DNA of 64,000 nt from Bacteroidota bacterium (GTDB taxonomy: Bacteria; Bacteroidota; Bacteroidia; Chitinophagales; Chitinophagaceae), in the NCBI GenBank assembly GCA_030706685.1, contig JAUZOA010000009.1, forward strand, positions 44,643-108,642, given 5' to 3'. Below the pieces are notes generated by a model. That model saw nothing but the letters and a program-made list of their open reading frames with translations. It was not told the origin of the DNA and ran no database searches. Of this stretch, positions 31,222 to 64,000 are shown piece by piece. The translations under genes were made by a program, and so were the position numbers. The stretch's first letter is position 1. The number at the start of each line of letters is the position of its first letter.

Positions 31222-31264
31222 GCGGTCAGTGGTGAGTTTCATTCACTCACCACTGACCATTCAC
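31218..31264. repeat. hemD-hemE intergenic gtgagt/actcac hairpin repeat
   Basis: gtgagcggtcagtggtgagt / actcaccactgaccattcac, 18/20 complementary, 7-nt loop. Confidence 0.7.
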
Positions 31265-31303
31265 AACTGACTACTGACTTCTCACCGCTGACAACATGAA
31301 ATT

Positions 31304-32356
31304 ATGACAACATTAAAAAATGACTTATTACTCAGGGCTCTTCGAAGGGAAAAAGTAGAACGTCCTCCCGTATGGATGATGCGCCAGGCCGGAAGATACC
31401 TGCCGGATTATTTAAAATTAAAAGAGAAATATGATTTCTTTACCCGTGTACAAACACCGGAACTGGCCTGCGCGATAACGCTGCAGCCCGTTGACCAGGT
31501 AGGGGTAGATGCAGCGATCATCTTTTCAGACATTTTAGTTATTCCACAGGCGATGGGAATGGAAGTATTGATGGAGGAAGGAAAAGGGCCGTCCTTACCG
31601 GAAGTAATACAAACACAAAAAGATATTGATGCATTGCGTACCGATGGCGCGGAAGAAAGTTTAAAATATGTATTCGATGCATTATCCCTTACAAAAAGAG
31701 AATTGAACGGGAAAGTTCCTTTAATCGGTTTCGCCGGCGCGCCATGGACCATTTTATGTTATATGATAGAAGGCAAAGGAAGCAAAACATGGGATAAAGC
31801 CAAACAGTTTGCTTATACAGAGCCCCGGTTGGCACATCGGCTGCTGCAAAAGATCACCGATATCACTGTCCACTATTTAAAAGCGCAGGTAAAAGCCGGC
31901 GCCGATACAGTACAGGTATTCGACAGTTGGGCAGGTTCTTTAAGCCCGGCTGATTTTAAAACATTTGCCCAGCCTTATTTATTCCAGATTGCCGATGCAT
32001 TAAAAGAAACAGCGCCGGTTATTCTATTTCCCAAGGGAAGCTGGTATGCATTAAAAGACCTGGCTGAAAGCAATGCGTCGGGTATTGGTATTGACTGGAC
32101 GATCAGCCCGAAAATGGCCCGTGAGTTTACCGGCAATAAAATAACTTTGCAGGGCAATTTTGATCCCGCGAAATTATTAGCCCCTGTTAGCGAAATAAAA
32201 AAAGCAGTAAAAAAAATGATTGATGACTTTGGTATGCAGAATTACATCGCCAACCTTGGGCATGGTATTACCCCCAATGTGCCGGTTGATCATGCCAAAG
32301 CATTTGTAGAAGCCGTAAAAGAATATGAACCTTCGGTGGTGAGTAGTCAGTGGTGA
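31304..32356 (+). CDS. hemE: uroporphyrinogen decarboxylase
   Basis: [85 protein letters not shown]. Confidence 0.97.
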
Positions 32357-32416
32357 GTAGTGATCACTCACGACTAACAACTCATCACTCACCATTGATC
32401 ACTCACCACTCACAAC
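32336..32416. repeat. hemE-hemF gtgagt/actcac hairpin-type repeat overlapping the hemE 3' end
   Basis: ggtggtgagtagtcagtggtgagtagtgatcactcac...catcactcaccattgatcactcaccactcac. Confidence 0.65.
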
Positions 32417-33364
32417 ATGACTGGCAAAGACCACTGGACAGAATATATACACGACCTTCAAAACCGCATCTGCTCTGCATTGGAGCAAATTGACGGTAAA
32501 GGAAGATTTGTGGAAGATGCCTGGCAGCGACCCGAAGGCGGCGGGGGTAAAACGAGAGTGATCACGAATGGCCATGTTTTTGAAAAAGGCGGCGTTAATA
32601 CTTCTGTTGTTTACGGCAATGTAACCGATGCGATGCGGTCGCAATTAAAAATTAATGGCGCTGGCTGGTTTGCTGGCGGTTTGAGTTTAGTCATTCATCC
32701 AGTCAACCCGTTCGTACCCACTGTTCATTGTAATTACCGGATGTTTGAATTGTATAACGAAAAAAATGAAATAATTGACCGGTGGTTTGGCGGCGGAACA
32801 GATCTGACGCCTTATTATTTGTTTGAAGAAGATGCCCGGCATTTTCATCAGACGTATAAAAATGCCTGTGATGAATTTGACAAGTCATTCTACCCTGCAT
32901 TCAAAAAAGAATGTGATAATTATTTTGTAAACTGGCATCGTAACGGGGAACGCAGGGGAATTGGCGGAATATTCTACGACTATCAACGACCCGGTGAAAA
33001 ACAGGATATAAATTTCTGGATGAACTTCGGTAAACGTTGTGGTGACGCATTCATTACAGCCTATATACCTATTGTTGAGAAAAGAAAGGATACCCCTTAC
33101 CTGGCTGAACATAAGCACTGGCAGGAAATAAGACGTGGACGTTATGTAGAATTTAACCTCGTTCATGACAGGGGAACCTTGTTTGGATTAAAAACAAACG
33201 GGAGAACAGAAAGCATTTTGATGAGTCTTCCGCCGACCGTAAGGTTTGAATATAATTATCAGCCTCAACCCGGAACTGAAGAAGATAAATTATTGCAGGC
33301 TTGCCTTCATCCGCGGAATTGGCTGGCTGAAACCAGGAAAGAAGAAGGAAAAGAGCGGGTATAA
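32417..33364 (+). CDS. hemF: oxygen-dependent coproporphyrinogen oxidase
   Basis: SLVIHPVNPFVPTVHCNYRMFEL, WFGGGTDLTPYYLFEEDARHFH, GIGGIFYDYQ, GRYVEFNLVHDRGTLFGLKTNGRTESILMSLPP. Confidence 0.97.
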   Translation: MTGKDHWTEYIHDLQNRICSALEQIDGKGRFVEDAWQRPEGGGGKTRVITNGHVFEKGGVNTSVVYGNVTDAMRSQLKINGAGWFAGGLSLVIHPVNPFVPTVHCNYRMFELYNEKNEIIDRWFGGGTDLTPYYLFEEDARHFHQTYKNACDEFDKSFYPAFKKECDNYFVNWHRNGERRGIGGIFYDYQRPGEKQDINFWMNFGKRCGDAFITAYIPIVEKRKDTPYLAEHKHWQEIRRGRYVEFNLVHDRGTLFGLKTNGRTESILMSLPPTVRFEYNYQPQPGTEEDKLLQACLHPRNWLAETRKEEGKERV

Positions 33365-59637: not shown

Positions 59638-59803
59638 TGCTTCACTTTGTTCGCAATGACGTCTTCGCTTTGTTCGCAATGACGTCTTCACTTCGTTCGC
59701 AATGACGTCTTTGCTTGGTTCGTAATGATGTTTTGTTTCGTTCGCAATGATGTTTTCGCATTGCTCTCTATGACGTCTTTGCTTGGTTCGTAATGATGTT
59801 TCT
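59638..59803. repeat. approx. 23-bp degenerate tandem repeat, about 7 units
   Basis: ttcactttgttcgcaatgacgtc / ttcgctttgttcgcaatgacgtc / ttcacttcgttcgcaatgacgtc / tttgcttggttcgtaatgatgtt ... Confidence 0.85.
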
Positions 59804-59809
59804 AATTTC

Positions 59810-60169
59810 CTATTTTCTTAAATAATCATCTGTTTTATCCAACCAATCCTGGCGGGGAGGCGCCCAGGTATCTATTTCCTCTACATCACCCACCATCAGC
59901 GCTTCATGTGGCAGGTTGGATGGAATGACTACCACATCTCCCGGGCAAAGGTCCATCGTTTGTTCCTTATTGGCCCCAAACCAAAAACGCATTTTCCCCG
60001 AAACCACCTGGGTCACCTGTTCATGTATATGCTGATGCAAGGGTACTACAAAACCATCCTTAAATTTCATCCTCGCAATCATCAGTTTTTCTCCCGTAAC
60101 AATCTTTCGGGACATAGAGGGGTTTACCTCTTCGGCCGGAACTTCCTCCCAGTTCAATTTTTTTATCAT
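59810..60169 (-). CDS. cupin domain protein
   Basis: VVPLHQHIHEQVTQVVSGKMRFWFGANKEQTMDLCPGDVVVIPSNLPHEALMVGD. Confidence 0.9.
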   Translation of the reverse strand: MIKKLNWEEVPAEEVNPSMSRKIVTGEKLMIARMKFKDGFVVPLHQHIHEQVTQVVSGKMRFWFGANKEQTMDLCPGDVVVIPSNLPHEALMVGDVEEIDTWAPPRQDWLDKTDDYLRK

Positions 60170-60256
60170 GACCAATGGTTTTGATTAGCGGGAAATTGCA
60201 GTGAACTAAGTTATTGCTTTGTCCTGAGATTACACTCAGGGAGTCATTTCAGTAAC

Positions 60257-60388
60257 GGGTCAGTTTGAAATATGTCCACTGAGAACCGCAGAGATAAAGA
60301 GCGCCACAGAGAGACTATCATGAATCCTCTGAGATTCTCTGTTTCTCCGCGGTCTTCTGTGGCCCACATAAGTATTGAAACTGACCCA
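60257..60388. repeat. MITE-like element with inverted ends and internal CCGCAGAG-type repeats
   Basis: gggtcagtttgaaatatg near the left end and agtattgaaactgaccc at the right; internal accgcagagataaagagcgccacagagag and gattctctgtttctccgcggtcttctgtgg. Confidence 0.6.
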
Positions 60389-60475
60389 CTCATTTCCCGG
60401 AAAAGAATTAAATCGACCTTTAGTACTAAAGTTGCATCAGCAGGCGCCGGCTTTTTTCAGGACAAGACAAAGGGA

Positions 60476-60503
60476 ATAAAAAAACCCCGGCTCTTGCCGG
60501 GGG
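60476..60503 (-). terminator. Rho-independent-type terminator downstream of the DoxX gene
   Basis: Minus strand reads cccccggcaagagccgggg followed by tttttt. Confidence 0.7.
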
Positions 60504-60588
60504 TTGGAATAATTTATGCCCTGGTCCACAGGCCGAAGGCATAAACTTAGTAAGCCAATAACCGTATTGATCAAACCATAAACCTTAC

Positions 60589-61119
60589 TTAAATCTTTAC
60601 CAATCGTTCTTGAATTACTGGCCTGGGTGACCCGATTAATTTTTTTACAGGCCTTTTCAGGAATGCATCGAGCGACCATCTACCGGCTCCTTCTATTAAA
60701 AGAAAAAGGCAAATCAATACCTGCGCATAATCGGAACGTGTTTCATGCAGCACAGCCCAGATACCTATTTTAGGCGGCGCGGGAGGAATAGGCAGCGGGC
60801 TTGTACCTAAATACAGGGATATTTTAGTGCTGAGTATGGCAACAATCATTTGAATAATAAACCAGAAGGCGGTAAATCGTGTAAAAATGCCAAACAAAAG
60901 AAACAAACCGCCAATGATTTCCGCTGTCGCTACAAAATGGGCGGTCAGTTCGGGCATAGGAAAGCCAAGTTTTGTAAACCTGCCTAAACCCTGGTTGACA
61001 TAAACAAATTTTAATATCCCTTCCCAGAAAAATACACCGCCCGCCATTAGCCGGAGTATTAATATGGATGATTGTCCATTAACAGGCGGGTTGTTAAACC
61101 AATTGATCACTTTTTTCAT
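60589..61119 (-). CDS. DoxX family membrane protein
   Basis: LILRLMAGGVFFWEGILKFVYVNQGLGRFTKLGFP...VATAEIIGGLFLLFGIFTRFTAFWFIIQMIVAI. Confidence 0.88.
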   Translation of the reverse strand: MKKVINWFNNPPVNGQSSILILRLMAGGVFFWEGILKFVYVNQGLGRFTKLGFPMPELTAHFVATAEIIGGLFLLFGIFTRFTAFWFIIQMIVAILSTKISLYLGTSPLPIPPAPPKIGIWAVLHETRSDYAQVLICLFLLIEGAGRWSLDAFLKRPVKKLIGSPRPVIQERLVKI

Positions 61120-61672
61120 TTAGTATTTATTAATTGCTGAATAATGATTTCAGCGCAAAAGACAGAAATTCTAAAGGATGACAAAAAGATTTACATAAGC
61201 CAGATGGATTTCTTGATTAAACAAGAGAATTTGCCTTAATACGTAGAGTGAGGGATTCATTTCTACCACTGGAAAAATGGCTTTGTGCTTACCTGCAGTT
61301 TTTCCCCGACATGAATTGCCCGGAATAGTAATATTGGCATAAACCGTTCAATGCGATGAGTAAAAGAGATAGGCATGATTTTTTATTTTAAGTACGCCGG
61401 CAGCGGCCAAAGCCCCAATATCGCTTCCATCATAGTAAAATAAACGCAGGGTAAGTATCCTTTATCTTTGAGAATAACCAATGATGATATAAACAGCGTG
61501 TTGCAGAATGTATATGTGCGGGAAGCGATCAATGATTATTTTAAACGTAAGCTGTAATATAGCATAACTATTCAAACCCGTCTTACCGGCAGAAATTCGT
61601 TTTAAGACAATTTCTACGCGGTTCCGGAATAATGGCTTAACGGTCAAGCTATACCAGCGTAAGAAGGGCTGC

Positions 61673-62222
61673 GAATGCATGAGTTATGCAGGGGTAATGC
61701 GGGCTGAATGCAGGAGGAGCGCTATCCACACGCTACCCATACGTTACCTAAACATTACCTAAACGCTAATTGAATACGGGCCAAACGCTATCCAAACCTT
61801 ACCTGAACGCGGGCCAAACACAAGGGTAACACGGGCTGAATACAGTCATCTGGCTTTCATCTGGCTTCCATCTGGCTATCATATAGCTACCATCATACAA
61901 GGGAAACACTATCTGAATACAGGGATAATGCTACCTCAAAGCTGCCGTTCCCACACAGTTTACTTTACGCACCTCCTGGCTGACCAGTTATGCATGGGTT
62001 ATCCATGAGTTATCCATGCCGAATGCATGAGTCATGCATGGAACATCCGTGCTGAATATATGAGAGATCCATGCCGGATATATGAGACATCCATGCCAGA
62101 TCCATACGACTCGGCTGGGACTCATATGCGGCACTCAACCGAGATATATGAGACATCCGTGCCAGATCCAAGGGAGATCCGTGCCGGATATATGAGACAT
62201 CCATGCCGGGCGATGCATCTCA
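61673..62222. repeat. 11-bp phased degenerate repeat array, about 50 contiguous units, no indels
   Basis: Hand-partitioned from 61673 in steps of 11: gaatgcatgag ttatgcagggg taatgcgggct gaatgcaggag ... aaacgctatcc ... tctggctttca tctggcttcca tctggctatca ... ccatgccggat atatgagacat ccatgccagat ... atatgagacat ccatgccgggc. Loose core NNA(T/C)GCNNNNN holds through most units. Confidence 0.88.
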
Positions 62223-62329
62223 GCCAGGAAATATTTCGAATTTGTAGACGGAAGATGGAATACGGATAGTCAATCTAAATAATCACCCCTGAGTTCGTTT
62301 ACACAAACCCGGACATAGAAATGGTATGG

Positions 62330-63625
62330 TTATTTTGCCCTTACCAGGTCAAAAGTAGTACCGGTATATTGATGATTGATTAAGTGTAATACGACCCCGT
62401 TTTTCACGGCTTCAAACCAGCAATCGTATACCACGGTTTTGTTGTCCTGGTCGGTGGTAGAAATTTGCCAGGGAGAGAGCACCGAAAACGTTCCTTTATA
62501 ATGTTGCTGGTAGGTTTTCATGTTGCCTACCATACCCGTGGCTCCTTTGAATTCTGCTTCAAAACCCGAGCCGCTGCTGAAAATAAATTTATCACTCATC
62601 ACCACGGCGCTGGCGCCTACTGCCTGGTTGGTGTAATAATCATAATAGGAAATGGAACTTCCGCTTCCGGCCGCCCAGGCGCCTGTCAAATCCTGCGCGG
62701 TTACGCCAAAACGGTTATGCCCAAGCAGGTTTTTCAAATTATCACGAAATTGCTTTTGATGTTCGGCCTGTGAAGGAGACACGGCTACGACCGTTCTGGC
62801 GGTACCATTCTGCGCCACTATATCCATGGCCACATAACATCTCGTTCCCGTGGCATTTTCCGTTGCCTCGCCTTCGATATAATAGTGCCAGTCATCACTC
62901 CTGGCCACCGTACGGGTAAGTGTATAATATTTTGCGAATTGGTGTTGAAAATAATAATCAACCGTATTCTTCCTGCTTTCATCATTAAACTTTTCATCAT
63001 AAAAAAGACAAACCTTGAAATTATCTTTTGTGAGGAGTATATAGTCGTCCTGGGGTGTTGCCGACCAGCCATCATCAAAATGGGTAGTAGCCGTGCTAAT
63101 GCCATTGTTGTTGGTGCCGGCGATAACAGGATCTGTTTGTACCTGCTTATTCTCATCCACGGTCTCTAAAAACTTTTGAATATCCGGTACATAATCCTGG
63201 CTATTGGTTAATGACAGTATGCTGACTGTTTTATTTTTTCCGCTCAATACCGTTAATATGCCCACGGCGTTGTTTCCCTGGTATTGAAAGGAAGCGGTAC
63301 CTGCCATTGCCTTCCATCCTTTTTCTTCCACGGCTGGTTTTATTTCGGGCTGCGCCGTAATGCTCATTTGTTTGACCGCTATTTCATTCCACTGGTTCGT
63401 AAAATCCGTTTGAACGTTGTTGCTGCTTGTTACAGATTTATATACGGCGATAATACAAAAGCTCTCTTTTTGTTCATCGAACCGGGAGTAGGAAACATTA
63501 TTGCCGTTAGTGCTTTTCTTCCAGTCTTTGGGTGGAGAAAAACTCAGCATATCGAAGCTCTCTTTTTGCGCAGAGACTGTATATGCCATTATCAGCAAAA
63601 GGAAACATAGTAAGGGTCTGTTCAT
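62330..63625 (-). CDS. hypothetical secreted protein
   Basis: Signal peptide MNRPLLCFLLLIMAYTVSAQ; complete ORF. Confidence 0.75.
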   Translation of the reverse strand: MNRPLLCFLLLIMAYTVSAQKESFDMLSFSPPKDWKKSTNGNNVSYSRFDEQKESFCIIAVYKSVTSSNNVQTDFTNQWNEIAVKQMSITAQPEIKPAVEEKGWKAMAGTASFQYQGNNAVGILTVLSGKNKTVSILSLTNSQDYVPDIQKFLETVDENKQVQTDPVIAGTNNNGISTATTHFDDGWSATPQDDYILLTKDNFKVCLFYDEKFNDESRKNTVDYYFQHQFAKYYTLTRTVARSDDWHYYIEGEATENATGTRCYVAMDIVAQNGTARTVVAVSPSQAEHQKQFRDNLKNLLGHNRFGVTAQDLTGAWAAGSGSSISYYDYYTNQAVGASAVVMSDKFIFSSGSGFEAEFKGATGMVGNMKTYQQHYKGTFSVLSPWQISTTDQDNKTVVYDCWFEAVKNGVVLHLINHQYTGTTFDLVRAK

Positions 63626-63683
63626 ATCATTCAGCATTAATCTTGTTCGTATTATTATTACAGGTTGATCTTTATACCATAAC

Positions 63684-63982
63684 TGTTCGGAAGATTATAA
63701 CAGATATGAGCAAAGCAGTGGATTAGAATTTATTAGCGTTTATCTCAAAGACTTTTCATCCCCTCCTCCGGAGGGGCAGCAGCATTCTTCGCACATCTGA
63801 GTTTCCAAAAGGGGTGGGTCGTGGTTGCAGAATCTTACCTACTGCTCAGTAACCCACCCCGGTCATCTCAATTTCATATTTTCCTAAAATCGCCCCTCCA
63901 TAGGAGGGGATGAACTCCGAATTGCCACCATTTTCATTCGGCTCTTCACCATGAAGGATAGCTCATCATAATCTTCCGAACA
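63684..63982. repeat. nested inverted-repeat (MITE-like) region
   Basis: Outer 15-bp arms tgttcggaagattat (63684-63698)/ataatcttccgaaca (63968-63982); inner arms tcatcccctcctccggaggggc (63756-63777)/gcccctccataggaggggatga (63892-63913). Confidence 0.65.
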
Positions 63983-64000
63983 TTTGTGATCTTTACACCA

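Follow-up and report, generated by a model that had tools for sequence, protein, structure and literature searches.

The 11-bp repeat array at positions 61673 to 62222 of the window (i.e., the whole 64,000-nucleotide stretch of DNA analyzed here) is a single copy, made up of two modules, of a dispersed noncoding repeat family. At least eight related arrays were detected in the genome carrying the window, a 5.74-Mb draft assembly of 226 contigs, and the other copies are spread over at least seven further contigs (L023 on C1, L024 on C75, L025 on C35, L026 on C215, L027 on C150, L028 on C183, and L029 on C68). No homology was found among the flanks of the copies of this family. The array had been described in an earlier note as an old tandem repeat, a description that gives way to that of a single member of a dispersed family. 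The arrays suggest that the 11-bp spacing is read by some component of the cell. We assign a probability of about 0.4 to a reading in which the element would have spread as a block, selection would have kept its register, and the array would serve as a platform for an oligomeric DNA-binding protein.

Modular structure of the array and related families

Over 61673 to 62222, the lag-11 self-match was 0.495, compared with a maximum of 0.304 for 200 dinucleotide-preserving shuffles (z = 12.9), and lags of 22 and 33 gave values of 0.517 (z = 14.3) and 0.433 (z = 10.3), respectively. The 11-bp period reported in the earlier note was confirmed by this autocorrelation. The 11-bp signal was absent from the autocorrelation of the flanks (61100 to 61672 and 62223 to 62700), several 11- and 22-bp arrays were called in the array region by TRF, and a de novo scan placed the bounds of the period-11 DNA at approximately 61646 and 62232.

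On the basis of autocorrelation and homologous modules, positions 61673 to 61950 (forward strand) were delineated as module A, which comprises approximately 25 degenerate 11-bp units (consensus, approximately AAACGCTACCT), contains a TCTGGCTTTCA-type stretch at 61846 to 61892, and has homologs in L023, L024, L025, and L029. Module C (61986 to 62212, forward strand) consists of 11-bp units, mostly in alternating 22-bp pairs (CCATGCCGGAT/ATATGAGACAT; lag-22 z = 9.4 over 61961 to 62222), with a conserved interruption (approximately GGGACTCATATGCGGCACTC) and homologs in L023, L024, L026, L027, and L028. Between them lies a linker (61951 to 61985, no strand assigned) that is off-pattern and variable in length among copies. 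Aligned with that of L023, it shows two gaps of 1 bp each and differs in length by 2 nt, and the anchor distance from module A to module C is 111 bp in the window copy and 113 bp in L023. Approximately 50 units in unbroken phase had been proposed for the array; the register is indeed kept within the modules but is lost across the linker. The related copies vary in composition (A only, C only, or A plus C), and some additionally carry a module D (approximately TTGATAGGCAT).

Outside the element, the left neighbor (60589 to 61119, reverse strand) encodes a DoxX-family membrane protein (Pfam PF07681; E value, 7.7e-18), and the right neighbor (62330 to 63637, reverse strand) encodes a 435-aa protein with a signal-peptide-like start and no Pfam match.

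The genome also harbors a second family that looks unrelated (fam2; unit, approximately GTCAGGNNAGR), represented by 23 strong copies that have a head and a tail in common. Nine period-11 loci, including the window array, were revealed by the de novo scan in 464 kb of this genome; were this portion representative, the extrapolated total would be approximately 110 loci per genome. Period 7 was the sole other common class in this sample (eight loci) and, over all of the genomes sampled, accounted for 35 of the 86 arrays, more than any other period. Between families, the unit cores differ and resembled each other weakly (P < 0.05 for 11 of 91 pairs), and no single universal unit motif was found.

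Other repeats were observed in the window. Degenerate 7-bp arrays (CACTGAC/CACTCAC) are located at 31244 to 31278 and 32299 to 32456, and a tandem 23-bp/68-bp repeat (CTTCGCTTTGTTCGCAATGACGT) at 59640 to 59802 overlaps the start of a short-chain dehydrogenase ORF. An inverted-repeat element (CACTGAGAACCGCAGAG...CTCTGAGATTCTCTGTTTCTCCGCGG) occupies 60272 to 60370; because a close relative lies to the left of the fam2 copy L157, it represents a further dispersed repeat of the genome. The 3' ends of fam2 copies (L157 to L171 and L292 to L298) run into an ORF start (ATGGCAAAGATTAAACCGGGAATTATT...), which belongs to an intact 263-aa gene at L160 and extends for only a few codons at most other copies. 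No named family was found for the 263-aa ORF, and it was rejected as an autonomous partner of fam2: the genome contains a single intact copy, a short remnant, and a distant relative.

Phase retention in diverging copies

The 23 related fam2 copies were compared using MAFFT-based alignments, with changes mapped on an approximate tree. Pairwise divergence was 0.238 in the array and 0.236 in the nonrepetitive tail. The array had accumulated 425 substitutions and 18 indels, each 11, 22, or 33 bp long, with no phase-breaking indel, compared with 234 substitutions and 33 phase-breaking changes in seven clusters in the tail. In Fisher tests of array against tail, P was 6e-15 when every change was counted, 7.7e-4 when clusters were counted, and 0.016 when only the four nonhomopolymer clusters were; this comparison is based mainly on this one family and on one short, A-run-rich tail as the control. 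The earlier note had named two findings that would reduce the array to eroded low-complexity DNA, a nonsignificant 11-bp autocorrelation and frequent phase-breaking indels in close relatives; the autocorrelation is significant, and frequent phase-breaking indels were not seen between copies.

Across families, about 400 core-to-core spacings were 11 bp, one was 10 bp, and none was 12 bp. The 11-bp spacings numbered 116 in fam2, 55 in fam1-C, 45 in fam1-A (with one at 10 bp, in copy L029), and 145 in 37 copies of a further family, from genome G013, in which none was 10 or 12 bp. The earlier observation of substitutions with no phase slip accordingly holds within the window copy and nearly holds family-wide, the exception being L029. 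The fam2 unit is composed of a conserved core (TCAGG; divergence by phase, 0.00 to 0.11) and variable columns, of which the next two reach 0.65 and 0.41 (permutation P = 2e-4). Module C of the window copy showed a similar dependence, with divergence ranging from 0.16 to 0.52 by phase of 11, and the per-phase effect was not significant in module A (P = 0.13; four copies). Units at the same position diverged less between copies (0.185) than did units within one copy (0.248), indicating that arrays were copied whole and not homogenized. Concerted evolution was rejected on these grounds as the cause of phase retention. Error-prone templated amplification, an origin suggested in the earlier note, has no direct support.

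A neutral origin, in which slippage made the 11-bp units, the minisatellites eroded, and the seeming phase lock stems from a low rate of indel mutation in DNA that lacks homopolymers, appears unlikely to us. Slippage does yield indels of 11, 22, and 33 bp, the control tail is abundant in A-runs, and ordinary 11-bp tandem repeats occur in many phyla; among the matches listed, near-perfect 11-bp repeats in unrelated phyla resemble ordinary minisatellites. However, such an origin accords poorly with the lack of phase-breaking indels among the fam2 array substitutions (P = 0.016 even without homopolymer indels), with the strong contrast between conserved core and variable columns in fam2, and with the absence of homogenization.

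Stops are present in all six frames of modules A and C, the codon-position values were 0.36/0.32/0.27, and the substitution rate in module C follows phase modulo 11, not codon position. A protein-coding repeat, which the earlier note had thought unlikely, was rejected because of these stops, the absence of a codon-position signal, and the frameshifts that 11-bp indels would cause. A conserved RNA fold was likewise rejected, as the minimum free energy z values were -0.9 for one strand and -1.0 for the other, no covarying base pairs were found in 21 and 35 copies, and Rfam covariance models had no matches at E values of ≤1 in 60000 to 64000; the earlier suggestion of a structured repetitive RNA was therefore not supported. 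A different role for RNA, modeled on the proposal for TAACTGA heptamers upstream of start codons, would be that of a single-stranded binding array, i.e., a transcript read at 11-nt spacing by an RNA-binding protein. We regard this as very unlikely. It is consistent with the positions of two G013 copies (L127 and L135) just upstream of terminator-like hairpins and with the several fam2 copies that run into an ORF start, but array orientation is not tied to neighboring transcription units and the conserved fold is absent.

Relative to both neighboring genes, fam2 copies were codirectional in 7 cases, convergent in 6, antisense in 5, and divergent in 3, and the corresponding counts in G013 were 6, 5, 8, and 10. 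A simple untranslated-region role is disfavored by this apparent lack of orientation bias. The flanks of fam2 had a positive GC skew on the element strand (mean, 0.027; positive in 17 of 23; P = 0.003), which hints that the elements are co-oriented with replication; the G013 skew was not significant (P = 0.13).

Apparent insertion and distribution of the arrays

In G000, one element copy occupies the gap between lpxB and the gene upstream of it. In all six congeners, lpxB is associated with shorter intergenic DNA from which the element is absent, and the copies therefore look inserted. A heptamer array was observed upstream of lpxB in one congener (L315). The lpxB locus was used for this syntenic test because the DoxX neighbor of the window copy has no close ortholog among the congeners. 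Mobility is supported as the way in which the copies arose, whatever their role.

It is possible that mobility is the whole explanation, and that the arrays are selfish nonautonomous repeats (MITE, REP, or IS200/IS605 derived) whose 11-bp register serves their own mobilization (e.g., transposase or helicase loading) and has no host role. The dispersed copies without common flanks, the lpxB insertion in a single species, the conserved head and tail framing the fam2 and G013 arrays, and an inverted repeat (CTATCCNG..CNGGATAG) noted by eye at the 5' side of fam2 all fit this explanation. On the other hand, element ends and target duplications were not definable, the lpxB site being too diverged, and the genome contains two weak Y1 transposase matches, neither adjoining an array. 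Mobilization by RAYT/IS200 was rejected because arrays are absent from the loci of these two Y1_Tnp matches. A broken RAYT-like ORF near the fam2 copy L163 is suggestive, as a single case. Selfish mobility and neutral erosion are both live rivals to the platform reading.

Matches to an 11-spaced ATGC core pattern were found in 9 of 200 genomes, representing 7 of 104 genera, of the taxonomic family, with 43 matches in G013. The reversed control pattern, which also has an 11-bp spacing, matched other large genomes (G118, G133, G154, G198, and G210), indicating that arrays with other cores exist. Arrays with 11-spaced ATGC cores were detected in Chitinophaga ginsengisegetis, C. polysaccharea, C. 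barathri, and Chitinophaga sp. CF118 and S165, as well as in Sphingobacterium faecium and Bacteroidales metagenome-assembled genomes (MAGs), one of which has a head common to four contigs. A named Chitinophagaceae MAG and G037, which is of the same family as the window organism, carry identical units, from which the window organism very probably belongs to Chitinophagaceae. A search with window-family arrays gave no matches in congeners, and the de novo scan of approximately 380 kb of congener DNA revealed no period-11 loci and one marginal period-22 locus; any host function is therefore not conserved. The window array had no match in plasmids and phages. No report of phased 11-bp arrays was found in a literature search of open-access papers, in agreement with the earlier remark that no described family was recognized.

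The G013 family differs from that of the window and comprises approximately 40 distinct copies, in which ATGCTTNAAAC units come after a conserved head (GTGGYGC..TACCGCAATACATACACTAAACATGC). In the heads of L127 to L156, an 8-nt block occurs at the same place in either orientation (CTAAAGTG/CACTTTAG), as if inverted by template switching. Many G013 elements (L128, L130, L133, L136, L137, L139, L146, and L148) have another repeat (GTAAACTTCAAACAGGATTATCTGACAGAAGTGTAAACC) immediately upstream.

A putative spacing reader and known systems

In the platform reading, the element would spread as a block, inserting into intergenic regions, after which its letters would drift while selection keeps the exact 11-bp register. 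Each unit would be a contact site for one protomer of an oligomeric DNA-binding protein, and the protomers would assemble side by side along the array, one per 11 bp, with spacing thereby counting more than sequence. From the patterns described above, we infer that selection probably caused the phase retention, that a protein probably binds the arrays, and that DNA, not RNA, is probably the molecule that is read. Repeats in which letters drift and spacing is fixed point to a reader of spacing, and the many arrays per genome, together with unrelated ones in other genera, are natural replicates for finding it. The differing unit cores between families are awkward for a single sequence-specific protein. 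B-DNA has 10.5 bp per turn, and an exact 11.0-bp step therefore drifts by approximately 25 bp, or more than two turns, across 50 units; by this arithmetic, the step is no helical-phasing device over that length, and the earlier proposal that the cores sit on roughly one face of the helix is not supported. A phased protein-binding or segregation site had also been proposed. A binding platform is the least contradicted of the earlier ideas, but the dispersal of the copies leaves a segregation site in the strict sense unsupported. A broader reading, which we hold to be doubtful, is that of a Bacteroidota element class in which only the exact 11-bp step is conserved, the spacing being read by the cell or the element, with little regard to sequence, via a putative filament- or ring-forming binding protein, with a 7-bp sister class. 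These arrays bear on a long-open question, namely, the role of short intergenic repeat arrays (heptamers and 11-mers) in bacteria.

By appearance, the closest described kind is the heptameric intergenic direct-repeat array, which includes the STRR of cyanobacteria and the TAACTGA arrays of Beggiatoaceae, cyanobacteria, and some Bacteroidetes (PMC4679880). Heptamer and 11-bp arrays alike have a short unit, a period that is not a multiple of 3, intergenic positions at many loci per genome, a patchy distribution, and a putative function. Unlike heptamer arrays, the 11-bp arrays have highly degenerate units and a strict register, lack a single conserved unit, and lie within dispersed elements that have a head and a tail of their own. 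Membership in the STRR/heptamer group was rejected because the unit is a degenerate 11-nt sequence and not one conserved 7-nt sequence. A CRISPR array was rejected because the degenerate 11-bp units are contiguous, in place of identical repeats with unique spacers. REP/REPIN and MITE repeats are, like the 11-bp elements, intergenic, multicopy, noncoding, and nonautonomous, but their defining features are hairpins or terminal inverted repeats, together with a mobilizing transposase, and not an 11-bp array. REP/REPIN with RAYT was rejected, as the weak Y1 transposase matches do not lie beside repeats.

The parC iterons of plasmid R1 (type II partition) have an 11-bp unit. Like the window array, these ParR-bound iterons are direct tandem repeats with a step of approximately 11 bp. 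In contrast to parC, the arrays described here are chromosomal, occur as many dispersed copies without adjoining par genes, and do not share a unit sequence between families. No parM or parR gene lies beside the window array, the neighbors being the DoxX gene and the gene without a Pfam match, and the ParM-like actin family (PF06406) had no matches in the genome, as was also the case for control genomes. The parC tandem repeats of R1 are split by the par promoter (PMC5016525).

The omega repressor of pSM19035 binds the 7-bp heptads of parS side by side as dimers, on both direct and inverted units (PMC5016525). A search without a positive control gave no matches to the omega repressor family (PF07764). 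By analogy, the platform might work like parC iterons or omega heptads, and we assign it to neither. The parS heptads resemble the 11-bp arrays as tandem short sites, with a step of 7 bp there and 11 bp here. Inverted units, which omega also binds in parS, occur here as well: the two 11-bp arrays at L107 (14198 to 14350) and L123 (13380 to 13500) terminate with their own units in inverted orientation, giving long inverted repeats.
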